Shown: in pieces, positions 4,303-22,175 of the stretch
How positions within the stretch are numbered: the first letter of the stretch is position 1
How the letters are laid out: each line of letters starts with the position of its first letter
NCBI RefSeq assembly: GCF_000155635.1
Contig: NZ_DS990556.1
Span: forward strand, 1,851,079 to 1,915,078
DNA from: Cyanobium sp. PCC 7001
GTDB lineage: Bacteria; Cyanobacteriota; Cyanobacteriia; PCC-6307; Cyanobiaceae
Direction: 5' to 3'
DNA: 64,000 nucleotides
Made by a program: the position numbers and the translations under genes
Notes under the pieces: generated by a model
What the model was told of the DNA's origin: nothing
The model's database searches: none
Seen by the model: only the letters and a program-made list of their open reading frames with translations

Positions 4303-5886
4303 ATGGGCGTGCGGGTCGGGCTGTGGAGGACACTCACGGCGACGCTGCTGGGGCTGCTGATCGGGCTGACACCGGCGCTGGCCCAGGGCACCGCAACGGC
4401 GAACCCGGCCCCGATCCTGCTGGATGGGCGCACCCTGTTCAACCTCTGGCCCTCACGCAACCTCACGGCCGAGCAGCGCAGCAGCACCGTGAACGGCCGG
4501 CTGGAGGAGGCCGTGGCCTCAGGGCGCCCGGTGCAGGTGACGGTGGAGGAGGCCAACAACCTGCCGGTGCTCAGCCTCAACGGCCGCACCCTGGTGACGG
4601 TGACGGAACGGGATGTGCCCGAGGGCCTGGAGGCACGGGAGCAGGCCGAGCAGTGGCAGAGCCAGCTGGAGGCGGCCATCGCCCGTGCCCGGCAGGAACG
4701 CACCCCCGAGCACATGGTGCGCATGCTGCCGCGGATGCTGGCGATCCTGCTGGCGGCCCTGGGGCTGCACCTGCTGCTGCGCAGGCTGTGGCGCCGCTGG
4801 TGCCCCGAGGCGCTGACCCCCCTGCCCCTGCCCACCGAAGGGGAGCGCAGCGACCGCTCCAACCGCTTCCTGCTGCGCAGCGCCCTCGTGCTGCTCCAGA
4901 GCCTGGTGTGGCTGGGGGCCGCGGCCCTGGTGATGGATCTGTTTCCCCTCAGCCGCAGCCTCAGTGCCGGCGTGGTGGAGGCCCTGCGGCGCTGGCTCAG
5001 CGCTCCGTTCCTGCCGCTGGGCTCCCGCAGCTACTCGCTGCAGGACGTGGTGGTGCTCGTGCTGCTGTTCATCGCCCTGGCCCAGGCGGTGGGGATGCTG
5101 CAGAGCCTGCTGCGCCGGCGGGTGCTGCGCTACACGGGCATGAGCGAGGGCGGCCAGGAGGCGGTGGCCTTCGTGGCCCGCTACGGCCTGCTGCTGGTGG
5201 GCACGCTGGTGCTGCTGCAGCTGTGGGGGCTCGACCTCACCTCGCTCACCCTGTTCGCCAGCGTGCTCGGGGTGGGGGTGGGCCTGGGGCTGCAGGGGAT
5301 CAGCAAGAACTTCCTCAGCGGCCTGATCATCATTTTCGAGCGCCCCATCCAGGTGGGCGACTTCGTGGAGATCGGCGATCTGCAGGGCACGGTGGAGAGC
5401 CTGGGTCTGCGCAGCACCAAGGTCACCACCCTCGATCGGGTCACGATCATCGTGCCGAACTCCGAATTTCTCGAGTCACGAGTGATCAACTGGAGCCATG
5501 GCAGTTCGGTGTCACGGCTGCAGGTGCCGGTGGGGGTGGCCTACGGATCCGACACCACCGCCGTGCGCGAGGCCCTGATCGCCGCCTGCAAGGGCAATAC
5601 GGCCGTTCTGAAATCGCCACAGCCGCGGGTGTACTTCAGCAATTTCGGCGACAGCTCCCTCAACTTCACCCTGCTGGTGTGGACGCGGGAGCCCCGGCGC
5701 CAGTACGAGATCGTGAGCGACCTGAACTACAGGATCGAAGCCCTGCTCAGGGAGCGCGGCATCACCGTGCCCTTCCCGCAGCGGGATCTGCACCTGGGCG
5801 ACGGCAGCCTCAGGATCAACCTGCCGCCGGCGCTCGAGGCGGGACTCCAGGCCCTGCTGGAGCGGCAGCAGAACCCGGAGCGCTGA
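4303..5886 (+). CDS. mscS: MscS-family mechanosensitive ion channel
   Basis: This 527-aa inner-membrane channel should open on membrane tension and release solutes on hypo-osmotic shock. A Sec signal peptide (residues 1-28, ending ALAQG) is followed by a periplasmic segment of about 110 residues, several membrane helices (about 144-162, 190-212, 246-266, 290-310) and the diagnostic pore helix with Gly/Ala packing (SVLGVGVGLGLQGISKNFLSG region, about 317-337). The cytoplasmic beta domain follows (FERPIQVGDFVEIGDLQGTV). The extra N-terminal domain makes it longer than E. coli MscS. mscL follows 77 bases downstream, so the two major osmotic safety valves sit together. Confidence 0.92.
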   Translation: MGVRVGLWRTLTATLLGLLIGLTPALAQGTATANPAPILLDGRTLFNLWPSRNLTAEQRSSTVNGRLEEAVASGRPVQVTVEEANNLPVLSLNGRTLVTVTERDVPEGLEAREQAEQWQSQLEAAIARARQERTPEHMVRMLPRMLAILLAALGLHLLLRRLWRRWCPEALTPLPLPTEGERSDRSNRFLLRSALVLLQSLVWLGAAALVMDLFPLSRSLSAGVVEALRRWLSAPFLPLGSRSYSLQDVVVLVLLFIALAQAVGMLQSLLRRRVLRYTGMSEGGQEAVAFVARYGLLLVGTLVLLQLWGLDLTSLTLFASVLGVGVGLGLQGISKNFLSGLIIIFERPIQVGDFVEIGDLQGTVESLGLRSTKVTTLDRVTIIVPNSEFLESRVINWSHGSSVSRLQVPVGVAYGSDTTAVREALIAACKGNTAVLKSPQPRVYFSNFGDSSLNFTLLVWTREPRRQYEIVSDLNYRIEALLRERGITVPFPQRDLHLGDGSLRINLPPALEAGLQALLERQQNPER

Positions 5887-10250: not shown

Positions 10251-12614
10251 CTACTGCCGCGCCAGGATCATCCTCATCCGTTCCTCCTGGTTCTCCACCA
10301 GTTCCCCGGAGACGTCCACCAGAGCACGCTTCACCACACCGGCGTAGGCAAAGGGCGGCCGATAGTCCGGCATGGTGGGTGAACCCGGATCGGCCCCCAC
10401 CGCCACGCCGGATGCCAGGCCCAGGCTGAGGGGGATGGTGACCGGCAGATCGCCCTGACCCACGGGCTGGCCGTCCACCAACAGGGTGATGTGGGCCGGA
10501 GTTCCCTTGCCATTGGCGATGTCCGCAGGGCCCGTGGGGGTGAACTCCACACTGAGGATGTGATGGCCGCTCGGGATCGGTGCCGTCGCCGTGATTCGGA
10601 AGTGGGTGTCGGCCACATAGTTGTAGCCGTAGGTGAGCGTGCCGTTCTGCACGTAGAACGCGAAGCCACCGTCATTACCGCCCATGCTGAACAGCACGCC
10701 GTCGGCACCTCCCTCGGGCACCACGGCTTCCACCGAGATCGCGTGGGGCCGGTTCAACAGGCGGGGAGCCGCATTCCCGGGCACCACCTGGGTGCCGGGG
10801 TAGTAGATGTAGCGCTCGCGATCCACGGCGATCTGGGGCCGTTCGATCCCAAACCGCTGGGTGCCGCGGCTGTCGATCGGCAGCACGTTGAAGCGGCCGG
10901 CCTCCACGTACCACATGCCGATCATGGCGATCAGCCGCTCACGCTCGGCGGCGGCGAGGTTGTTGGTCTCGGCGAAATCCTCCTCGAGGTTGTAGAGCTC
11001 CCAGCCGTGGGCATCGAGCTCGATCAGCTGGTCGTAGCTGATCGGATCACCGAAACGCCGGCCCGACTCGGTGAAGGACGTCCCCGGCCAGGGGCACACC
11101 GCCCGCCAGCCCTCGTGATACAGGGAGCGGTGGCCGAACATCTCGAAATACTGGGTGCGATGCAGGCTCGGCACGTCCGCGTCGTTGAAGCAACCGAACA
11201 GGCTGAATCCCTCGATCGGGCTCTGGGTCACCCCCTTGATCGCCGCCGGCGCCTCGATGCCGAGGGCCTCCAGCACCGTGGGCAGCATGTCGATGGCATG
11301 GCAGTACTGGCTGCGGATCTCGCCCCGGGCGGCGATGCCCTTCGGCCAGCTCACGATGAAGGGATCGCTGGTGCCGCCCCGGTAGGTTTCACGCTTCCAG
11401 CGCCGGAATGGCGTGTTGCCGGCGTGGGTCCAGCCCCAGGGGTAGTGGTTGAAATACTTCGGGCCGCCGATGTCATCGATGGCGGCAAGGTTCTGCTGGA
11501 GGTTCTCAGGAACGTTGTTGAAGAATTTGCCCTCATTCACCGAACCGGTGGGTCCCCCCTCGGAGCTGGCCCCGTTGTCGGAGATCAGCATGATCAGGGT
11601 GTTGTCGTACTCCCCCAGTTGCTTGAGGAACGCGATCAGTTCGCCGATGTGGTGATCGGTGTGCTCGAGGAAGCCCGCGAACACCTCCATCATCCGGGCG
11701 TAGAGGCGCCGCTCCTCCTCCGACAGGGCATCCCAGTCGGGCACGTCGGGATCGTGGCGTGACAGCACGGTGTTGGGCGGGATGATGCCGAGTTCCTTCT
11801 GCCGGGCGAACACCTTCTGGCGGTAGGCGTCCCAGCCGTCGTCGAACTGCCCCTTGTACTTGTCGGCCCAGTCCTTCGGCACATGGTGCGGCGCGTGCAT
11901 GGCGCCGGTGGCGAAGTAGAGGAAGAAGGGCTTGTTGGGGGCCACCTGCTTGGCGTCGGCGATCATCGCCTTGGCCTGCGTCACCAGATCCGGGGTGAGG
12001 TGGTAGCCCTGCTCGGGGGTGGCGGGGGGTTCCACCTGGGTGTTGTCCCGCACCAGCTCGGGGTAGTACTGGTGGGTGTCGCCCCCCAGGAAACCGTAGT
12101 AGCGCTCGAAGCCCCGTCCGAGGGGCCAGCGGTCGTAGGGACCGGCTGCCGAGGTGGCTTCGGCCGGCGTGAGGTGCCACTTGCCCACCGCGTAGGTGTT
12201 GTAGCCCTTCTGCAGCAGGATCTCGGAGAGGAAGCCGTTCTCGAACGGGATGTAGCCGTTGGAGCCGGGGTACCCCATCGACCCCTCGGTGATGCAGGCC
12301 AGCCCGTTGGAGTGGTGGTTGCGGCCCGTGAGCATGCAGGAGCGCGACGGCGAGCACAGCGCCGTTGTGTGCATGTTGCTGAAGCGCAGCCCTTCGGCCG
12401 CCAGGGCATCGATGTGGGGGGTGGCGATCGGGCTGCCGTAGCAGCCGAGCTGCCCGAAGCCCGTGTCGTCCATCACGATGAACAGCACGTTGGGGCTGCC
12501 CTCCGGAGCGCGGATCGGCTCAGGCCAGGCCGGGGTGGAGACATCGGCCGTGCGGCCGATCACGCCGGGGAAGGCCGTGCCGGGCCGGTATTCCTTGGAG
12601 GCCATCCGAGACAC
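10251..12614 (-). CDS. Arylsulfatase (formylglycine-dependent sulfatase)
   Basis: This 787-aa sulfatase should release sulfate from sulfate esters. The N terminus has the metal-binding pair in NVLFIVMDDTGFGQLGCYG (Asp 49-50) and the C-x-P-S-R signature CSPSR at 87-91, whose Cys would be oxidised to formylglycine. Other family marks are VGKWHLTPAEA and the Ca-site DNGASSEGGPTGS. The last 200 residues form a beta-rich C-terminal domain (GVLFSMGGNDGGFAFYVQNG). It starts with GTG at 12614 or ATG at 12605. No signal peptide is visible, so cytoplasmic action is likely. Sulfate scavenging is inferred. Confidence 0.92.
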   Translation of the reverse strand: MSRMASKEYRPGTAFPGVIGRTADVSTPAWPEPIRAPEGSPNVLFIVMDDTGFGQLGCYGSPIATPHIDALAAEGLRFSNMHTTALCSPSRSCMLTGRNHHSNGLACITEGSMGYPGSNGYIPFENGFLSEILLQKGYNTYAVGKWHLTPAEATSAAGPYDRWPLGRGFERYYGFLGGDTHQYYPELVRDNTQVEPPATPEQGYHLTPDLVTQAKAMIADAKQVAPNKPFFLYFATGAMHAPHHVPKDWADKYKGQFDDGWDAYRQKVFARQKELGIIPPNTVLSRHDPDVPDWDALSEEERRLYARMMEVFAGFLEHTDHHIGELIAFLKQLGEYDNTLIMLISDNGASSEGGPTGSVNEGKFFNNVPENLQQNLAAIDDIGGPKYFNHYPWGWTHAGNTPFRRWKRETYRGGTSDPFIVSWPKGIAARGEIRSQYCHAIDMLPTVLEALGIEAPAAIKGVTQSPIEGFSLFGCFNDADVPSLHRTQYFEMFGHRSLYHEGWRAVCPWPGTSFTESGRRFGDPISYDQLIELDAHGWELYNLEEDFAETNNLAAAERERLIAMIGMWYVEAGRFNVLPIDSRGTQRFGIERPQIAVDRERYIYYPGTQVVPGNAAPRLLNRPHAISVEAVVPEGGADGVLFSMGGNDGGFAFYVQNGTLTYGYNYVADTHFRITATAPIPSGHHILSVEFTPTGPADIANGKGTPAHITLLVDGQPVGQGDLPVTIPLSLGLASGVAVGADPGSPTMPDYRPPFAYAGVVKRALVDVSGELVENQEERMRMILARQ

Positions 12615-12722: not shown

Positions 12723-13370
12723 TCAGGGCTCGGCGGCCAGCCGCCGCAGGTAGTCGTCCAGCCGGCCGCCATTGATCCAGCCGGTGGCGATGGTCTTGGT
12801 GTGGCTGTGGCTCACCCGGCCGCGGTGGATGTGGGACACCCCCGCCGGGAAGATCAGCAGCTTGCCCCGCTCGGCCTCTTCGTGGTGGCCCTGCCAGTGG
12901 AACTCGGTGCCACCCTCCGGCAGGGTGTTGGCGTAGAGGATCCAGGCCAGCACCCGGGCCTGGGGTTCGGTGGCCTCGTCGCTGAGGGTCCAGTCGCAGT
13001 GCCAGGCATGGAAGCCCTCGCCGGGCGCGTAGCGCTGCAGGTTGAAGATCGGGTTCACGAACACGCTCTGATCCGGGCAGCACTGGGCCAGCAGCGGTCG
13101 TTCCCTGAGGTACTGGGCCAGGCCGGCGTTGACACCGCGCAGGATCACCTCCGCCAGGGCGAAGGCCTCCGGATCGCTGCGGTCGATCGCCACCAGGCTG
13201 ATGTCGGTGGACACCTTGGCGGGGGCCTGGGCGGACGGGTCCTCCCCCCCGACCTCGGGACCGAAGGCCACCCCTGGCCGCTGCAGATCGGTGCGGCGAT
13301 CGAAGAAGGCGACCACCGCATCGGCCACGGCTTCGTAGCCGGCATTGCGGTAGCTGGCGATCAGGTTCAT
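12723..13370 (-). CDS. 2OG-Fe(II) oxygenase (prolyl-hydroxylase-like)
   Basis: This 215-aa protein has the double-stranded beta-helix pattern of 2-oxoglutarate/Fe(II) dioxygenases. The iron ligands are H124 and D126 in HAWHCDW, with a second His at 180 or 182 in PAGVSHIHRGRVSHSHTK; Lys/Arg after it could bind 2-oxoglutarate. The core motif FNLQRYAPGEGFHAWHCD is typical of prolyl-4-hydroxylase-like members. The substrate is unknown. Its ATG overlaps the TGA of the upstream gene as ATGA (13367-13370), which indicates translational coupling and a joint task with that unknown protein. Confidence 0.82.
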   Translation of the reverse strand: MNLIASYRNAGYEAVADAVVAFFDRRTDLQRPGVAFGPEVGGEDPSAQAPAKVSTDISLVAIDRSDPEAFALAEVILRGVNAGLAQYLRERPLLAQCCPDQSVFVNPIFNLQRYAPGEGFHAWHCDWTLSDEATEPQARVLAWILYANTLPEGGTEFHWQGHHEEAERGKLLIFPAGVSHIHRGRVSHSHTKTIATGWINGGRLDDYLRRLAAEP

Positions 13371-13897
13371 GGCTGCCGTCCGGCGTCGGGGGGCATGGCG
13401 GGCTCCGCCCAGGGAATGGCCACCGCCGCCTCCAGACAGCGCCAGCGGCTGCGGTCGGAGCCCAGCCTCGCCCCCAGGCCCACCCGCTCCACCGCCGCGG
13501 CCGCCCGCTCCAGGCTGAGGGGCTCCCCACCCGGGGCCAGCGGCAGCACCAGCACCTGGGCCTCGGCCGGATCGGCCATCACCTGGAGATCCAGATCGCC
13601 CAGTTCCCGCTCGAAGTACACCCGTCGCATGCGGGCGCGCAGGGCGGGCCCCAGGGCCGCGGCAAAGGCCACGAGGCTGGCCTGATCGCCGGAGCAGCCG
13701 CAGTTGAGGGCCAGCCAGATCAGCAGCTTGGCCCAGCCCTCGGCGCTCCACACCGGCTGGAAGCTCTCCCGGTGCTGCCGCACCAGCTCGGTGATGGCGA
13801 ACTCGAACAGGGTGGCCTGAAGCCTGGAGGCCTCGGGCACGGCGGCAGCCTCGGGGCCGGCAACGGCGGTCGGGTCGGTCATGGCAGGCGCCGGCAT
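13367..13897 (-). CDS. Conserved hypothetical protein coupled to the oxygenase
   Basis: I do not recognise this protein of about 176 aa. Its centre (LQATLFEFAITELVRQHRES, then WSAEGWAKLLIWLALNCGCSGD) looks helical and well conserved in character, with a Cys-x-Cys pair. The C-terminal half is Leu/Ala-rich with a possible second domain. Starts at 13909, 13897 and 13882 are all possible; 13897 has an AGGA about 11 bases upstream. The stop overlaps the oxygenase start by 4 bases, so the two are probably one functional unit. It is divergent from the 84-aa gene at 13957. Confidence 0.7.
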   Translation of the reverse strand: MPAPAMTDPTAVAGPEAAAVPEASRLQATLFEFAITELVRQHRESFQPVWSAEGWAKLLIWLALNCGCSGDQASLVAFAAALGPALRARMRRVYFERELGDLDLQVMADPAEAQVLVLPLAPGGEPLSLERAAAAVERVGLGARLGSDRSRWRCLEAAVAIPWAEPAMPPDAGRQP

Positions 13898-13956
13898 CTG
13901 CACACCCATCCTCGCCAGTGGGCAAACTGCAGAGGCAACGTCCCTGGAGACGCCCG

Positions 13957-14211
13957 ATGGCCCTGGATCTCAATGACCCGGAGCTCGAGTTCGCCGATCT
14001 GGTCACCGCTTACCAGAGCTGGGTGATGGCCGTGATCAACGACGAGAAGCTGGGCGGTGAACCCATGCTCACCGACGAGATCGCCGATGACGCGATCAAC
14101 GCCATGCGCTTCCTGCCGGATGTGGTGACCAGCGCCATCGAGACCACCCTGGCCCGCGTCTACGACGTGGACCCCGAAGAGCTGGACGGCCTGCTCTACC
14201 CGGAGGACTAG
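13957..14211 (+). CDS. Conserved small acidic protein, unknown function
   Basis: This 84-aa acidic, mainly helical protein (MALDLNDPELEFADLVTAYQ at the N terminus, ARVYDVDPEELDGLLYPED at the C terminus) has no signal peptide or membrane segment. It looks like a real gene by composition and position: ATG 13957 begins after a divergent gap, and the stop is 9 bases before the GTG of the solute-binding lipoprotein, so the two are probably co-transcribed. I recognise no domain. The spacing suggests a soluble partner of the lipoprotein/MscS pair, which is inference. Confidence 0.75.
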   Translation: MALDLNDPELEFADLVTAYQSWVMAVINDEKLGGEPMLTDEIADDAINAMRFLPDVVTSAIETTLARVYDVDPEELDGLLYPED

Positions 14212-14220
14212 GGGCCGCCG

Positions 14221-15561
14221 GTGGCCACCCGGTCTGCCCCGCGACGCTGCCGGCAGGTGACGCCGGTTCTGGCGTTGGCCGGGCTGACCCTGCCTGCGCT
14301 GCTGGCGGGCTGCCAGCAGCGGCAGCCCGGCACCGGGCCGGCCGCCGGAGCCGATCCGCTCGGCGGCGGCGGACTCCACACCACCCTTTACATCGCCGTC
14401 GGCCTGGAGAAGGCGCTCGATCGCCAGACCGATCTGGTGAGCCAGAAGCGGCTGCGCGAACAGTTCGATCAGCTGCAGCAGGCCTTCCAGGACGTGCGCC
14501 CCGGGGTGCAGCTGCAGGTGCTGGTGTTCGACAACGAGCAGGTGATCCAGGAGGTGCAGCGCCGCACCCACAGCGGCCTGGGCCCCGACCTCGTGCTGGT
14601 GGATGGCCTCACGGCTGAACGCCTGCATGCCGAGCAGCTGCTCGCTCCGATTGACCTGCCCAACCCCGCCAGCGGCCTCTTGAGGCCTGAGCTGATCCCC
14701 TACGTGCAGGCCACACCGAACCAGTGGTTTGCCATGCCGGTGGGCCTGGAACCCCAGCTGGCCTGCTTCGACCGGCGCCGCCTCAAGGCCGCACCGACGA
14801 CGCTGGCCGAACTGCTGGAGGCCAGCAGCCGGGGACAACGCATCGGCCTCGGCCTCGATCTGGGCAGCCTCGGCTGGACGATGGGAAGCCTGGGAGCGCT
14901 GGAGAGCGTGGCGGCCCTGAGTCGCGGCGGAGGGGCCACGCCGGAGCGGCAGCGGTCGATCCGCAGCTGGCTCGACTGGCTCCGCAACGCCGGGCTGCAG
15001 CTGCGCATCCGCTTCCTGCCCACCCACGCCCAGCTCGTGCAGGGGCTGCGAACCGGACAGTTCGACTGGATCAGCTGCCGCAGCCAGGATGGGGCCCTGC
15101 TGCGGGATGCGCTGGGGCCCCATCTGGGTCTGGCTCCCCTGCCGGCAGGGCCGGGCGGCGCCCCCAGCCCGCTCTCCACCGTGCGGGTGTGGGGCTTCGG
15201 ACGCAATTCCAGCAGCCGGCAGCGGGCCGCTGCCCAGGAGCTGACGCGCTTCACCCTCAATCCACCGGTGCAGCGGGGCTTCACCATCCAGACGGAGGGC
15301 CTGCTGCCGGTGATCCGCTCCGCCAGCCTGCCCGTGGCGAGTTCGGCCAACCTGGCCGCCCTGCTGGCGGCCCAGCAGCAGGCTGAAGCAGCCCAGCCCC
15401 AGACGGAGCCCCTCATCGCCCTGCGCGGCAGAAAACAGGGGCTGAACCGCATCCTCACCCTGTTCATGTACGGGGAACTCGACAGCGCCGCCGCTACCCA
15501 GGCCCTGATCCGGGCCCTGGAGCAGGGGGCACCCGCCGCCGGAGGTGGCTTCGATGGGTGA
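14221..15561 (+). CDS. Extracellular solute-binding lipoprotein (ABC family-1-like)
   Basis: This 446-aa lipoprotein has a basic N region, a hydrophobic stretch and a lipobox LLAGC (Cys 32), so it is anchored on the periplasmic side. The body follows family-1 (maltose-type) binding proteins: FQDVRPGVQLQVLVFD, then GPDLVLVDGLTAERL, and ANQWFAMPVGLEPQLACFD-like central segments. These proteins normally feed an ABC importer, but no permease or ATPase is nearby. Instead, an MscS-like channel gene overlaps its 3' end by 8 bases (ATGGGTGA, 15554-15561). It starts with GTG. The ligand is unknown. Confidence 0.82.
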   Translation: MATRSAPRRCRQVTPVLALAGLTLPALLAGCQQRQPGTGPAAGADPLGGGGLHTTLYIAVGLEKALDRQTDLVSQKRLREQFDQLQQAFQDVRPGVQLQVLVFDNEQVIQEVQRRTHSGLGPDLVLVDGLTAERLHAEQLLAPIDLPNPASGLLRPELIPYVQATPNQWFAMPVGLEPQLACFDRRRLKAAPTTLAELLEASSRGQRIGLGLDLGSLGWTMGSLGALESVAALSRGGGATPERQRSIRSWLDWLRNAGLQLRIRFLPTHAQLVQGLRTGQFDWISCRSQDGALLRDALGPHLGLAPLPAGPGGAPSPLSTVRVWGFGRNSSSRQRAAAQELTRFTLNPPVQRGFTIQTEGLLPVIRSASLPVASSANLAALLAAQQQAEAAQPQTEPLIALRGRKQGLNRILTLFMYGELDSAAATQALIRALEQGAPAAGGGFDG

Positions 15562-16825
15562 CCTGCTGCTGGAGACCGCCGGCTGGCTGGGATACCTGGA
15601 GCGCCCGGCGGTGCTGTTCCAGCTGTTGGGCACCGGGCTGGCCGTGGGCCTCTACATGGCGTGGGGGCGCCGCGGCGGAACGTCGCCGCAGAGCCGGATC
15701 CGGCGCCGCTGGGTGCTGCTGGGAAGCCTGGCGCTGTACGCAGCGCTGCTGGCTGCCCTGGCCAGGCCCCACCGGCTGGTGTTGCTGCTGGTGCTGCTCA
15801 CGGCCGGCTGGTTCGGCCTCTCGGCGCTGCGCCGGCGACTGGCCCGCTCGATGCCGGCCGAACAGTTGCAGCAGCTGGACACCGGCCTGCTGCGGCCGCT
15901 CTATCTGCTTGTGGCCTTCCTGCTGCTGGTGCAGGAGGTGGATTCCCGCCGCAACCTGGCCCTGATCCCGATGGGCTCGTGGTTCGGCAACGAACTCACC
16001 GCCGGCCAGCTGTTCCAGGCCCTGCTGGTGCTCTATCTGCTGCTGATGGGATCGGGCCCGCCCACCAAGGCCCTGGCCCGCCTGGTGCAGCGGCTGATCG
16101 GCGTGAGCGACAGCGGCCGGCGGGCCCTGGCTCTGGTGCTCCAGTACGCCCTCGTGGGCCTGGGCGTGATCTGGACGCTGGATCAGGTGGGCTTCAACCG
16201 CACCGCCATCGTGGCGGTGGCCGGCGGGCTCTCCGTGGGGCTGGGCTTCGGCGTGAAGGAGGTGTTCTCGAACTTCATCAGCGGCCTGTGGCTGCTGTTC
16301 GAGGGCTCGGTGCGGCCGGGTGACGTGCTGTTCATCGATGGCGATCCCTGTGAGGTGCGGCGCCTGGGTCTTCGGGCCGCCGTGCTCTGGCGCGACCGCG
16401 ACAACGCCGAGCTGGTGATCCCCAATCAGACGTTCTTCACCACACCCACGATCACCTACACGGGCACCGACCGGCTGCGCCGCGGCCAGGTGCTGGTGGG
16501 GGCGGCCTACCAGCACGATCCCGCCGTGGTGATCGCCCTGCTGGAGCGCACCGCCGCGGCGGTGACGGGGGTGCTGGCCAGCCCTGCCCCGAAGGGACTG
16601 GTGATGGGCTACGGCGACTCCGCGATCCAGTACGCCGTGCGGTTCTGGATCAGCGATCCGCTCCAGAACATCTCGGTGAGCAGCGCCGTGAACACGGCCG
16701 TGTGGCAGGCCTTCCGGCGCGAGGGCATCGCCATCCCGTTCCCGCAGATGGTGCTGCATCAGGCGCCTGGGGAGCCCCCTGGAACGGAGCAGGCCGGGCA
16801 GGAGCGTCAGGCGGAGAACCCGTAG
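15554..16825 (+). CDS. MscS-like channel coupled to solute-binding lipoprotein
   Basis: This 423-aa inner-membrane protein has about six predicted membrane helices before the MscS core. The pore helix reads VAVAGGLSVGLGFGVKEVFS (about residues 217-236), followed by the MscS beta domain (GSVRPGDVLFIDGDPCEVRR) and ending in the usual IPFPQMVLH motif. It differs from the channel at 4.3 kb by lacking a signal peptide and having more helices. ATG 15554 overlaps the lipoprotein stop by 8 bases, so translation is coupled. An alternative GTG lies at 15545. Its 3' end overlaps the convergent esterase gene by 19 bases. Confidence 0.88.
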   Translation: MGDLLLETAGWLGYLERPAVLFQLLGTGLAVGLYMAWGRRGGTSPQSRIRRRWVLLGSLALYAALLAALARPHRLVLLLVLLTAGWFGLSALRRRLARSMPAEQLQQLDTGLLRPLYLLVAFLLLVQEVDSRRNLALIPMGSWFGNELTAGQLFQALLVLYLLLMGSGPPTKALARLVQRLIGVSDSGRRALALVLQYALVGLGVIWTLDQVGFNRTAIVAVAGGLSVGLGFGVKEVFSNFISGLWLLFEGSVRPGDVLFIDGDPCEVRRLGLRAAVLWRDRDNAELVIPNQTFFTTPTITYTGTDRLRRGQVLVGAAYQHDPAVVIALLERTAAAVTGVLASPAPKGLVMGYGDSAIQYAVRFWISDPLQNISVSSAVNTAVWQAFRREGIAIPFPQMVLHQAPGEPPGTEQAGQERQAENP

Positions 16826-17712
16826 CTGCTGAGCTCTGCGGAGGCCGCCAGCCGGCGCACCACGTCGGCGGCCAGCTGGTCGGCGGTACCGGTTCGGGGG
16901 TGCACGTCGTCGAGGAAGCGGGGAGCAGCCACGCTGTTCCACACCGGGAAGCCATCCACCACCAGCACGTCATCGTCAACGGCGGTGTTGTAGCGGCCAC
17001 TCAGGCGGCGGTTCACCCCGCGGGCCGTCTGGTCGACGAAGCGGCGCAGCCGCCGGCCCGTCCTGCCGCCGAGGCCTCGGGCCTGGGAGCGCACGAAGGG
17101 GGTACGGCTCAGCGGGGCGATGCCCAGGATCACGGTCTCATCGATGCCCTGGCCCGTGAGGAGGTCCACGGACCCCTGGATGTTGGCCGCGATCCGACCG
17201 GCCAGGCGGTTGCGCAGCCGCCTGTCGTCGCCGCGGCGGCGGCTGCGCATCGCCCGAAGCACCGCTGGACGCTGCACCTGATCGAGGATGTCGTTGCTGC
17301 CGGCCACGATCAGGGCATCGCGATCGGATCGGAACGGGGCGCTGTCGGCGAAGGCCCGTGCCTGGGACCGCAGGCCGAGGCGGAACCCGGCCAGGCCGGC
17401 ACGGCGCGAGCCCCGGAGCCCGGAGGTCGCTCCTGCATAGGCGTAGTTCCAGAGCTGGACATCCGGATCCACCCCGCCCGTGAGGGTGCTGAGGGGGAGG
17501 CTGAGCAGGTTGAGCCGTGCCTGGGAGGCGAGGCGGGCGCCGAGCCGGCGGGCGATGTGCTCGGCCAGCACCGGCCCATTCGAGGCCTTCACGTTGCCGC
17601 CCCCGGCGTAGCGGCGCCCCGCAAAGGGGTTCCGGCCCACCAGGGAGGCCAGGGCGGCGACATTGCCGGAATCCACGAGGCTGTCGCCCAGCAGTGTCAG
17701 GGAAGTGGTCAT
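16807..17712 (-). CDS. SGNH/GDSL-family hydrolase
   Basis: This 301-aa esterase-type protein has the block I motif LTLLGDSLVDSGN with nucleophile Ser near residue 9, the oxyanion Gly/Asn regions NYAYAGATSGL and VAGSNDI, and the catalytic Asp-x-x-His in FLDDVHPRTGTADQLAADV near the C terminus. It fits cyanobacterial GDSL proteins. No signal peptide is visible. ATG 17712 places the GDSL strand right at the start and is preferred over an upstream in-frame ATG near 17730. It is convergent with the MscS-like gene, overlapping by 19 bases. The substrate is unknown. Confidence 0.85.
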   Translation of the reverse strand: MTTSLTLLGDSLVDSGNVAALASLVGRNPFAGRRYAGGGNVKASNGPVLAEHIARRLGARLASQARLNLLSLPLSTLTGGVDPDVQLWNYAYAGATSGLRGSRRAGLAGFRLGLRSQARAFADSAPFRSDRDALIVAGSNDILDQVQRPAVLRAMRSRRRGDDRRLRNRLAGRIAANIQGSVDLLTGQGIDETVILGIAPLSRTPFVRSQARGLGGRTGRRLRRFVDQTARGVNRRLSGRYNTAVDDDVLVVDGFPVWNSVAAPRFLDDVHPRTGTADQLAADVVRRLAASAELSSYGFSA

Positions 17713-17903
17713 CAGCGCTCTCCACGCCACCGGATCTCCCTGGGGCCGCTCCGGTGCTCAGTGCAAGCCCCATGCTGGCCCAGGGGCGGGAGCGGGCTCG
17801 GCGGGCTCGACCAGGAGCCGCCACACTGGAGCCGGTCGCACCTGGATGTCCCGTGCCGAAGGTTCCCCTGCCGGCAGCGCCATCCGGGTGCCTTGACCCT
17901 GCC

Positions 17904-20687
17904 ATGGCCGCCGACCTGGCCCAGGCCCATGCCACGGGCACGGCCAACCTGCTGGAGGCCCTGGCCAGCGATCCCGGCCGCGGACTGAGCGCTGAGGAGG
18001 CCGAGCGGCGGTTGCAGGCGTGGGGCCTCAACCAGCTGAGCGAACGCCGGGCGAGGCCGGCGTGGCTGCGCTTCCTCGGCCAGTTCAACGATCCGCTGCT
18101 CTACACGCTGCTCACCGTGGGCGGCGTGAAGCTGCTGCTGGGCGAACCCACCGAGGCGTGGGTGATCTGGAGCGTCACGGTGATCAACGCCGTGATCGGC
18201 TACGTGCAGGAGAACAAGGCTGAAACCGCCATCGCCGCCCTGGCCCGCTCGGTGCGCACCCAGGTGGAGGTGCTGCGGGATGGTGCGCGCCAGCGGCTCG
18301 CCTCGGAACAGCTGGTGCCCGGCGATGTGGTGCAGCTGGAGGCGGGCAACAAGGTGCCGGCCGACCTGCGGCTGCTGACGGCACGGGAGCTGAGGGTGGA
18401 TGAATCCGGGCTCACGGGCGAATCGCTGCCGGTGTTCAAGACCACCGAGCCCGTGGCCGGCGACACCCCACTGGCCGATCGCCACGGCATGGCCTACGCC
18501 GGCAGCCTGGTCACCGCCGGGCAGGCCCTCGGCCTGGTGGTGGCCACCGGCAACGCCACCGAAGTGGGGCAGATCTCCCACTCCCTCGCCGAACAGGTCA
18601 ACCTCAGCACGCCGCTCACCCGCAAGTTCGAGGGCTTCACCCACACGCTGCTGCAGCTGGTGCTGGCCCTGGCGGGGCTCACCTTCCTGGTGGGGGTGGC
18701 CCGCGGCCGGGCCGCCGCGGAGATGTTCGATGGCGCCGTGGCCCTCGCCGTGGGGGCCATCCCGGAGGAGCTCCCCGCCATCGTCACGATCACCCTGGCG
18801 ATCGGGGTGAACCGCATGGCCCGCCGCAACGCCATCATCCGCAAGCTGCCGGCGGTGGAAGCCCTCGGCAGCACCACCGTGATCTGCTCCGACAAGACCG
18901 GCACCCTCACCCAGAACCGGATGACGGTGATGGAGATCTACGCCGGGGGCGAGTGCTGGAGCCTGGGCCAGCTCTGGCCGGTGGCGCTGGAGCCGGCAGC
19001 CGCCTCCCCGTCCTCCGGCCCTGAGCCCGCTGGCCACCAGGACCCCCTCAGCCGCAACCTGGCCCTGCGCGAAACCCTGCTGGCCGGTCTGCTCTGCAAC
19101 GACGCCCGCCCCAGCCGTCAGCAGGGGCTGGTGGGGGATCCCACCGAGACGGCCCTGCTCCAGTCCGCCGCCACCGCAGGGCTCGACCGGCAGCAGGCGC
19201 TGGATCGCCATCCCCGCCGCGACGCCATTCCCTTCGCTTCGGAGCAGCAGTTCATGGCCACGCTGCACGGCGATCAGCGCATCCTGCTCAAGGGGTCGGT
19301 GGAGGCGGTGCTGAGCCGCTGCCGGGCCCAGCTGGCCGCCGACGGCCGCGAGGAACCCCTCGATCCCGCCGCCATTGCCACGGCGGTGAGCGCCATGGCC
19401 CGCCAGGGTCAGCGGGTGCTGGCCTTCGCGGTGGGTCAGGCCGAGCCCCGGCTGCAGCAGCTGGCCCATGAGCACCTCAGCGGCAGCCTGGTGTTCCTCG
19501 GCCTGCAGGGCATGCTGGATCCGCCGCGGCCCGAGGCCCTCTCGGCCGTGCGGGCCTGCCAGAAGGCCGGCATCACCGTGAAGATGATCACCGGTGACCA
19601 CCGCGACACCGCCCGCTGGGTGGCCGCCGAGCTGGGCCTGGGGCGCGGCGGTGCCGTGCAGGCCGTGGAGGGGCGCGAGCTGGAGGGCTGCCCTGCCGAG
19701 GAGCTGCAGGCGCTGGCCGAGCGCACCGATGTCTTCGCCCGCGTGGCCCCGGCCCAGAAGCTGGCCCTGGTGCAGGCCCTGCAGGCCCGGGGCGCCGTGG
19801 TCGCCATGACCGGCGATGGCGTCAACGACGCCCCCGCCCTGAAGCAGGCGGACATCGGCATCGCCATGGGCCGGAGCGGCACCGAGGTGGCCCGCGAGGC
19901 GGCCGACATGCTGCTCACCGACGACAACTTCGCCACGATCGAGGCGGCGGTGGAGGAGGGACGGGCCGTGTACCTCAACCTGCGCAAGACCCTGGCCTTC
20001 GTGCTGCCGGTGAACGGCGGCGCCTCGATGACGATCCTGCTCGGCGCCCTGCTGGGTCTGGAGCTGCCGGTGACAGCCCTGCAGGTGCTGTGGCTGAACA
20101 TGGTCTGCTCCCTCAGCCTGTCGGTGCCGCTCGCCTTCGAGCCGCAGCCACCGCGGCTGATGGAGCAGCCACCCCGGCCGCCGGGCCAGCCGCTGCTCAA
20201 CGGCCCCCTGGTGCGGCGGGTGCTGATGGTGTCGGCCTTCTACTGGATGCTGATCTTTGGAGTGTTTCTGGGCGTGTCGGCCAGGGGCGGCTCGCTGGAG
20301 CTGGCCCGCACCATCGCCATTCAGACCCTGGTGCTGGCCCAGGTGGTGTACCTGCTGAGCCTGAGCCAGGCGAGCAAGACGGGCTGGCGCCAGTGGGTGC
20401 GGATGCCCATGCTGCTGGGGGGAATCAGCCTGGCCCTGCTGCTGCAGGTGCTGTTCAGCCAGGCCTCCTGGATGAACCGCTTCTTCGCCACCGCGGCGCT
20501 CAGCGGTTCCCAGTGGCTGCTGTGCGCTCTGGCCATGCTGGCCATGCTGCCGGTGGCCTGGCTCGGCGACCGGCTGGATCCCATGGCCAGCGGGTCGTCC
20601 TCGCCTCAGGCCCCACGCGGTGGACGCAACGGGGCTGACAAAGACGAGGAGATGGAGAGGGTGCCGCACAACCCGCAGCAACGGTGA
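17904..20687 (+). CDS. P-type cation-transporting ATPase (type II)
   Basis: This 927-aa membrane pump is in the Ca/Na/H type II class. The N-terminal cation ATPase domain ends at about residue 75. The actuator has the dephosphorylation loop DESGLTGESLPV, helix M4 has AIPEELPAIVTITLAIG (PEEL near 287, instead of the CPC of heavy-metal pumps), and the phosphorylated Asp is D330 in ICSDKTGTLTQNRM. The hinge TGDGVNDAPALKQADIGIAMG and four to six C-terminal helices follow. The ion cannot be fixed from sequence; Ca2+ or Na+ are likeliest. I chose ATG 17904 because the family begins there. Confidence 0.93.
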   Translation: MAADLAQAHATGTANLLEALASDPGRGLSAEEAERRLQAWGLNQLSERRARPAWLRFLGQFNDPLLYTLLTVGGVKLLLGEPTEAWVIWSVTVINAVIGYVQENKAETAIAALARSVRTQVEVLRDGARQRLASEQLVPGDVVQLEAGNKVPADLRLLTARELRVDESGLTGESLPVFKTTEPVAGDTPLADRHGMAYAGSLVTAGQALGLVVATGNATEVGQISHSLAEQVNLSTPLTRKFEGFTHTLLQLVLALAGLTFLVGVARGRAAAEMFDGAVALAVGAIPEELPAIVTITLAIGVNRMARRNAIIRKLPAVEALGSTTVICSDKTGTLTQNRMTVMEIYAGGECWSLGQLWPVALEPAAASPSSGPEPAGHQDPLSRNLALRETLLAGLLCNDARPSRQQGLVGDPTETALLQSAATAGLDRQQALDRHPRRDAIPFASEQQFMATLHGDQRILLKGSVEAVLSRCRAQLAADGREEPLDPAAIATAVSAMARQGQRVLAFAVGQAEPRLQQLAHEHLSGSLVFLGLQGMLDPPRPEALSAVRACQKAGITVKMITGDHRDTARWVAAELGLGRGGAVQAVEGRELEGCPAEELQALAERTDVFARVAPAQKLALVQALQARGAVVAMTGDGVNDAPALKQADIGIAMGRSGTEVAREAADMLLTDDNFATIEAAVEEGRAVYLNLRKTLAFVLPVNGGASMTILLGALLGLELPVTALQVLWLNMVCSLSLSVPLAFEPQPPRLMEQPPRPPGQPLLNGPLVRRVLMVSAFYWMLIFGVFLGVSARGGSLELARTIAIQTLVLAQVVYLLSLSQASKTGWRQWVRMPMLLGGISLALLLQVLFSQASWMNRFFATAALSGSQWLLCALAMLAMLPVAWLGDRLDPMASGSSSPQAPRGGRNGADKDEEMERVPHNPQQR

Positions 20688-20813: not shown

Positions 20814-21128
20814 TCAGAACTTATGCGCCCGCAGCGCTTCGACTGTGGAGATGTAGGTGATACACGAATAATCGTCGAAGTACTTGGCGACCACTTTGTC
20901 CTGAATCTGGTCGGCCAGCTCACGGGACGCTGTCAACACCTCAAATTTGATATTGGAGTAGGCATGAGACACACTGGGCTCGCCTGTGGAGCGAACGTTG
21001 CGGCTGCCTTCACCGGCCGCAGCCAGAACGGTGTAGCCGCTGGCTCCGGCCTCTTTGATGATTTTAGAGACCTTTTTCAACAAGATCTCCTCCGTGATAA
21101 TGACAAGTTTCCAGACTTGCTGGCTCAT
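20814..21128 (-). CDS. sbtB: SbtB, PII-like regulator of bicarbonate uptake
   Basis: This 104-aa ferredoxin-fold PII-like protein has the T-loop region [20 protein letters not shown] and the trimer strands [20 protein letters not shown] and [20 protein letters not shown]. SbtB binds adenine nucleotides and plugs SbtA. The C terminus ends EALRAHKF and has no Cys pair, so the redox-sensitive C-terminal loop (CGPxGC type) known from Synechocystis SbtB is absent here. It lies 48 bases downstream of sbtA on the same strand, the usual operon order. Confidence 0.95.
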
Positions 21129-21176
21129 GGCAGTAACCTCTGAGTCAAAGATGAAAGAACAACTTGGTAATCAAGC

Positions 21177-22175
21177 TTACGTAGCAAGCATGGATTGGGC
21201 AATCCCGATGAACAGCGGGATACAGATGGCAATGGCCACGGGAGTGCCGATGGCGGTGGAAGCGCCGATGTAGGCGGATGGATTCGCCGAGGGGATGCCT
21301 GCCCGCAGGGTAGGCGGGCCCGAGATATCGGAGCTGGAGGCCGCGATCACGGCCAGCACCACACAACCGCCGATGCTGAAACCGGTGAGCTGATGGATCA
21401 CAAGGCCAAAGCCAAAGGCAAGGAAGCCATGCAGGATCGGCGCAATCAGGGCATAGATGGCAAACCATTGGGCCACCTTGCGCAGCTCATTCATCCGCTG
21501 GGCGGCCTCCATCCCCATGATGATCATCAGGATCGAGAGGAAGCCACGGAACAGCGGGCTGAAGAAGCTCTCGTACACGGGTTCGGGCTTGGTGAGGATA
21601 CCGAGGGCCACACCCAGCAGCAGGGCCGTCACGGCGGAACTCTGAAGGCTGTCCTTCACGATCGCCCAGATATCCACGTCTTCGGACGTGCCGTCGGCCT
21701 TGCGACCCACATAGATGCTGGCCACCACGATCGCCGTCACCAGCGCCGGGATGTCCATGAAGGGATACAGGGCCGCACTCCAGGCCTCGTACTTGATGCC
21801 GGCGGTGTCCAGTTGGGGCAGCACGGCCGCGAGGGTGGAACCACTCACGGCGCCGAAGAGGCCTCCTGTGGCCACGGCATCCACGAAGCGGATGCCAGAG
21901 CATCGAGCCAGCGTGTACTGGGCGATCAGAACAATGAGAATGCCCAGCAGCACGGCCGCCAGGGCCGGAAGCAACAGCTCAGCCAGATTGGACTTGCGAA
22001 TGGCGATGCCGCCGCTCAATCCAACCTTCAACAACAGGAAGAAGGTGATGAACTTGTAGATTGAGTCTGGAATTTTCAGCTGGCTTCCCAGGGAAGCGAC
22101 GATGATGCCGCCGATCAAGAAACCAAGCGTTGGAGACTGAACCTGCTTGAGAAAGAGAGGGAAGAAATCGGACAC
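21177..22175 (-). CDS. sbtA: SbtA, sodium-dependent bicarbonate transporter
   Basis: This 332-aa high-affinity Na+/HCO3- symporter of the CO2-concentrating mechanism lies in the cytoplasmic membrane. It has about ten helices in two inverted halves; family marks include GGLFGAVSGSTLAAVLPQL in the first half and ASSSDISGPPTLRAGIPSAN in the second, the sodium and bicarbonate sites. It starts with GTG at 22175 with AGAGG about 7 bases upstream, which supports the start. A nested inverted repeat lies 36-61 bases upstream. sbtB follows. A Crp-family gene precedes it on the same strand. Confidence 0.97.
   Translation of the reverse strand: MSDFFPLFLKQVQSPTLGFLIGGIIVASLGSQLKIPDSIYKFITFFLLLKVGLSGGIAIRKSNLAELLLPALAAVLLGILIVLIAQYTLARCSGIRFVDAVATGGLFGAVSGSTLAAVLPQLDTAGIKYEAWSAALYPFMDIPALVTAIVVASIYVGRKADGTSEDVDIWAIVKDSLQSSAVTALLLGVALGILTKPEPVYESFFSPLFRGFLSILMIIMGMEAAQRMNELRKVAQWFAIYALIAPILHGFLAFGFGLVIHQLTGFSIGGCVVLAVIAASSSDISGPPTLRAGIPSANPSAYIGASTAIGTPVAIAICIPLFIGIAQSMLAT

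Follow-up and report, generated by a model that had tools for sequence, protein, structure and literature searches.

The window, a stretch of 64,000 nucleotides from Cyanobium sp. PCC 7001, carries three consecutive genes on the forward strand. They encode a small acidic protein of 84 residues (13957-14211; ATG at 13957, stop codon at 14209-14211), a predicted lipoprotein of 446 residues with a maltose-binding-protein-type fold (14221-15561; GTG start at 14221, stop codon at 15559-15561), and a channel of the MscS superfamily with 423 residues (15554-16825; ATG start at 15554). The positions given in an earlier note on this DNA were all recovered from the sequence and the list of open reading frames, as were the 9-base gap between the first two genes and the 8-base overlap of the lipoprotein and channel genes (15554-15561, forward strand). 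Judging from the sequence, this overlap is likely to couple the translation of the two genes. Among 99 related loci with flanking DNA, the lipoprotein and channel genes overlap in 76, by exactly 4 bases in 67 of them. The hallmark of ABC importers, a permease and an ATPase adjoining the gene for the solute-binding protein (SBP), is missing from the operon, and the earlier remark that it contains no ABC parts is borne out.

The three genes had also been taken for one tight system. Conservation extends only to the linkage of lipoprotein and channel; the small acidic gene lies outside the system, as a neighbour conserved in its own right. Its product has no Pfam match; the gene is present in 163 of the 201 genomes of the family, many of which lack the pair, encodes proteins that are 70-99% identical, and at many loci lies apart from the pair or on its opposite flank. 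We therefore rejected a three-gene operon, the small gene being a core gene that is also present in genomes without the pair and often lies away from it. Together with a divergent gene for a 180-residue protein (no Pfam match) and a 2OG-Fe(II) oxygenase gene, it makes up a strongly conserved neighbourhood of the Cyanobiaceae (12724-14211 in the window). A sulfatase gene (PF00884, 3.2e-69; 10251-12614, reverse strand) separates this block from the valyl-tRNA synthetase gene, and in some relatives (L268) the pair directly adjoins valS. On the other side of the pair, a gene for a cation P-type ATPase (17517-20687) lies ahead of genes for a PII-like protein (PF00543) and a predicted membrane transporter (20814-22175, reverse strand), which are probably SbtB and the bicarbonate transporter SbtA. 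The source genome (2.83 Mb) encodes 11 MscS-type channels. One of these, with 527 residues (PF00924, 2.3e-24), is encoded about 10 kb upstream in the window (4303-5886, forward strand) without an SBP lipoprotein, and is the nearest unpaired paralogue of the paired channel in this genome.

Conservation of the lipoprotein-channel pair

A positional tally over the Cyanobiaceae genomes placed the channel gene immediately downstream of the lipoprotein gene, on the same strand, at 112 of 115 lipoprotein loci. Searching the family with a channel profile gave the matching result, with the lipoprotein present at 112 of 113 channel loci. The three unpaired lipoproteins comprise two fragments and one on a small contig, where a contig end is likely, and the single unpaired channel is a fragment as well. 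The next gene is the channel in all lipoprotein genes with flanking DNA (99/99). In a search of the whole phylum, the pair was found for all 22 strong lipoprotein matches in five other cyanobacterial families, in which the channels are about 30% identical to that of the window. All 78 loci of named genomes with room on the contig are paired; 74 of these were scored automatically, and L195, L199, L215 and L261 are adjacent by coordinates. The proposal of the earlier note that an SBP-type lipoprotein has an MscS-like channel, instead of ABC permeases, as its partner thus describes a conserved module (112/115; 22/22). A natural fusion of lipoprotein and channel was not noticed among the pairs tallied.

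The two genes are also inherited jointly. Pairwise distances of the lipoproteins and of the channels correlate with r=0.81 in a mirror-tree comparison (maximum of 500 permutations 0.21), and in the 17 genomes with more than one pair, matching paralogues between genomes by lipoprotein or by channel gives the same assignment in 242 of 288 cases. The matched distances and the paralogue agreement indicate that the two genes move and are duplicated together as one cassette. Cyanobium and Synechococcus genomes contain up to three divergent pairs, and Synechococcus WH7803 has two separate pairs within about 10 kb. Accidental linkage is ruled out by the conserved adjacency, the pairing at the named loci and the joint inheritance. 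Joint inheritance alone is no proof of contact between lipoprotein and channel. At one locus (G168:C1:2211614-2214091), the lipoprotein gene is broken into three frames and the channel gene beside it is intact.

According to the earlier note, the linkage would be accidental if in relatives the lipoprotein sat beside ABC permeases and the channel elsewhere; the orthologues do not show this arrangement. The only relatives of the lipoprotein beside ABC permeases (BPD_transp_1) are deep ones, with 22-25% identity, which makes an origin from a sugar ABC system likely; the lipoprotein looks like an ABC sugar SBP that switched partner. When the pair loci were scanned with six CUT1 ABC queries, which distant permeases could escape, a UgpA-like sugar permease gene was found beside the pair, in divergent orientation, only in one Cyanobium-like genus (L035, L044, L213). 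At some marine Synechococcus loci the ATPase query gave matches; the single one inspected, L095, proved to contain an ABC-2 exporter. Two divergent pairs flank this exporter and a further MscS gene (L095, L087 and L273 are of the WH7803 type). We rejected the lipoprotein as the orphan SBP of a local ABC system, since the operon has no ABC gene and the adjoining permease, in the scan with the six CUT1 queries, is restricted to one genus and divergent. Another candidate identity was ChiE/CK_1342 of marine Synechococcus (PDB 6WPM), which is likewise a cluster-D SBP of picocyanobacteria. It is another gene, with its orthologue located separately in the source genome (G000:C1:2113739), and we know of no link between ChiE/CK_1342 and MscS channels.

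Architecture of the lipoprotein and the channel

The lipoprotein matches SBP_bac_8 (PF13416, 5.6e-17) and SBP_bac_1, and carries a lipobox (LLAG-C31) whose cysteine, the predicted site of lipid attachment (codon 14311-14313), is found in 57 of 62 aligned relatives; the five exceptions mostly reflect uncertainty in the start site or the alignment. In Foldseek searches with the AlphaFold2 model (pLDDT 89.5), the nearest solved structures are maltose/trehalose (MalE-type) sugar-binding proteins (E~1e-18, TM 0.6-0.7). The model predicts that the two-lobed MalE-type fold of the cluster-D SBPs is fully kept, and it contains an unusually long C-terminal helix (residues 376-416).

Fold and Pfam families are thus common to the lipoprotein and the MalE/GgtB-type SBPs (structural cluster D) of ABC importers. 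Unlike these, the lipoprotein is linked to a channel, has lost the sugar-contact residues and the NGPWA motif, and has two invariant cysteines specific to its family. Set against E. coli maltose-binding protein (MBP) and four SBPs linked to ABC genes, the lipoproteins of the pairs lack the equivalents of W62, D65, R66 and W230 (MBP numbering), in an alignment of about 20% identity in which individual positions may be off by one residue. Also missing are two features of ABC SBPs, the NGPWA motif and the G-x-P-x-P loop at the C-terminus. With the MBP-like sugar contacts gone, a classical sugar ligand is not to be assumed, and the ligand need not be a sugar. Polar and aromatic residues are still present at the positions equivalent to E153 and Y155. 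C182 (codon 14764-14766; 62/62 in alignments A1 and A3, absent in MBP and the four ABC-linked SBPs), C286 (codon 15076-15078), which replaces the conserved Asn of NGPWA, and W219 do not vary among the 62 paired lipoproteins, the most distant of which are about 19% identical, and occur in none of the SBPs used for comparison. As far as the sequences tell, C182 and C286 most likely form a disulfide.

The channel combines an MscK-like core with extra helices at the N-terminus. The first, second and third MscS domains (PF21088, PF00924, PF21082) all score above the cut-off, MscK is the best NCBIfam match (8.3e-40) and the match among PDB sequences (1.5e-26), and Foldseek with the AlphaFold2 model (pLDDT 88.3) returned MscK (7ux1) as the best hit. 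About seven transmembrane helices are predicted, with no large soluble domain at the N-terminus in the model; the number seven follows from predicted helices and charge distribution. A conserved loop (residues ~130-149) would then face the periplasm. The N-terminal region, with a conserved amphipathic segment (M..LL.E..GWLGYL.RP) and about four extra membrane helices, is present only in lipoprotein-linked channels. In unpaired MscS paralogues, the match is confined almost entirely to model positions ~107-419, with one starting at 48, and therefore the N-terminal region accompanies the lipoprotein. Of the two proteins, the lipoprotein shows the faster evolution (mean column identity 33% versus 51% for the channel).

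Possible roles of the lipoprotein

The nearest solved channel, by sequence and by fold, is the potassium- and tension-gated MscK (KefA) of E. coli, and the window channel has the same type of pore. Tension and an external ion are both required to gate MscK, whose large periplasmic domain is built in (PMC9653487). This domain of about 500 residues is covalently attached to a channel with 11 transmembrane helices (PMC9653487), whereas here a separate lipoprotein of SBP fold accompanies a channel with about seven. In likeness to MscK, a periplasmic component is expected to tune the gating of the window channel. A combination of an SBP-type ligand-binding fold and a channel is also known from cyanobacteria in GluR0, the ligand domain of which is a class-3-type SBP domain. 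In this glutamate-receptor-like K+ channel, which has been tied to cell-volume regulation, the SBP-type domain controls the channel (PMC13099474). In GluR0, by contrast, ligand domain and K+ channel pore form one fused protein, with neither an MscS part nor a lipoprotein.

By analogy with MscK (tension and ion) and GluR0 (an SBP-type domain on a channel), we propose that the lipid-anchored, two-lobed lipoprotein would dock to the channel heptamer from the periplasmic side and do the work of the built-in periplasmic domain of MscK. Once docked, it may shift the tension threshold of channel opening, and the open or closed state of its lobes, probably set by a periplasmic solute, would be the signal. 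Physical contact, periplasmic docking, the disulfide and an effect on gating are all inferred. We see about an even chance that the lipoprotein is a dedicated periplasmic regulatory partner of an MscK-type channel, in a cyanobacterial two-gene module descended from a sugar-ABC SBP; the genome in which the channel is intact although its lipoprotein gene is broken (G168) counts against this reading, as does the diffuse coevolution signal described below. Ligand gating of the channel by the lipoprotein is a plausible hypothesis. We advance only tentatively the full version, a binding-protein-gated mechanosensitive channel in which the SBP would respond to a periplasmic solute and control how an MscK-like heptamer opens. 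Two proteins would then combine membrane tension with the chemistry outside, in a device that came about through an ABC SBP changing partner. The apparent loss of the MBP-like contacts weakens the version of the regulator reading with a sugar as ligand.

The same loss of the W62/D65/R66/W230-type contacts, of NGPWA and of the G-x-P-x-P loop would also fit an SBP fold that no longer binds or senses any ligand and acts in the periplasm as a rigid cap or as a tether (to the channel, the cell wall or the outer membrane), stabilising or positioning the channel. The structural look of the invariant residues and the faster evolution of the lipoprotein point the same way. However, the bilobal fold is fully kept, and the residues at the E153 and Y155 equivalents may belong to a different pocket, and we regard such an adaptor as rather unlikely. 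A further possibility is that osmolytes escaping through the channel (sucrose, glucosylglycerol) are caught by the lipoprotein and delivered to an ABC importer whose genes lie elsewhere (Ggt/CUT1). The recovery of leaked compatible solutes has been ascribed to Ggt (PMC6753628), CUT1-type permeases are present in all pair-bearing genomes of the family listed, and the divergent UgpA-like permease of the one genus is in line with this idea. Yet the CUT1 ABC operon of the source genome has its own GgtB-like SBP, with the ChiE/6WPM-type SBP separate, and of the 152 genomes (among 201) with CUT1 permeases, about 64 lack the pair. Since, moreover, the sugar-contact motifs are lost and the linkage is to the channel and not to permeases, salvage for an importer is possible but less likely, and we consider it improbable.

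MscS-family channels can export metabolites, as in glutamate export by MscCG in Corynebacterium, and this, with the operon structure, would suit a lipoprotein that hands its solute to the channel, as a facilitated route of entry or exit without ATP. MscS pores are wide and poorly selective, however, and downhill flux would gain little from a binding protein, which makes this passive transport very unlikely. Co-transcription alone could reflect shared regulation, with both proteins acting in osmotic stress and never touching. Mean-field DCA on 157 pairs (reduced alphabet) scored the real pairing above permuted pairing and gave no residue-level interface: the top couplings were diffuse over cytoplasmic and membrane parts and unfocused on the periplasmic parts of the channel, and we read the signal as shared ancestry, not as an interface. 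The lack of detected residue-level coupling agrees with shared regulation only, but the linkage outlasts relocation, duplication and large divergence, with matched paralogues, and most co-regulated genes for non-interacting proteins separate over such distances; we rate this explanation lowest of all.

Known partners of SBPs are ABC and TRAP importers, and also some sensor kinases and receptors. MscS genes (PMC9361551; PMC7522525) and SBPs (PMC8786288) of picocyanobacteria are listed in surveys, and the pair is undescribed in the survey passages of these three papers; for the MscS genes (CK clusters) in the passages of PMC9361551 and PMC7522525, no match to the window channel was established. 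The open-access literature searched yielded no description of an SBP-MscS pair, or of any dedicated, near-unbreakable partnership of an SBP with an MscS-family channel. The presence of an SBP-type lipoprotein encoded beside a channel, not a pump, across many cyanobacteria suggests an undescribed two-part channel whose opening may be under control from outside the membrane. Such a channel would show, in a defined case, how a binding protein can pass from a pump to a channel, and would amount to a naturally split MscK; it would also be a tractable system for asking if mechanosensitive channels take chemical input. With up to three pairs per genome, the finding bears on osmotic handling and the release of organic carbon by picocyanobacteria.
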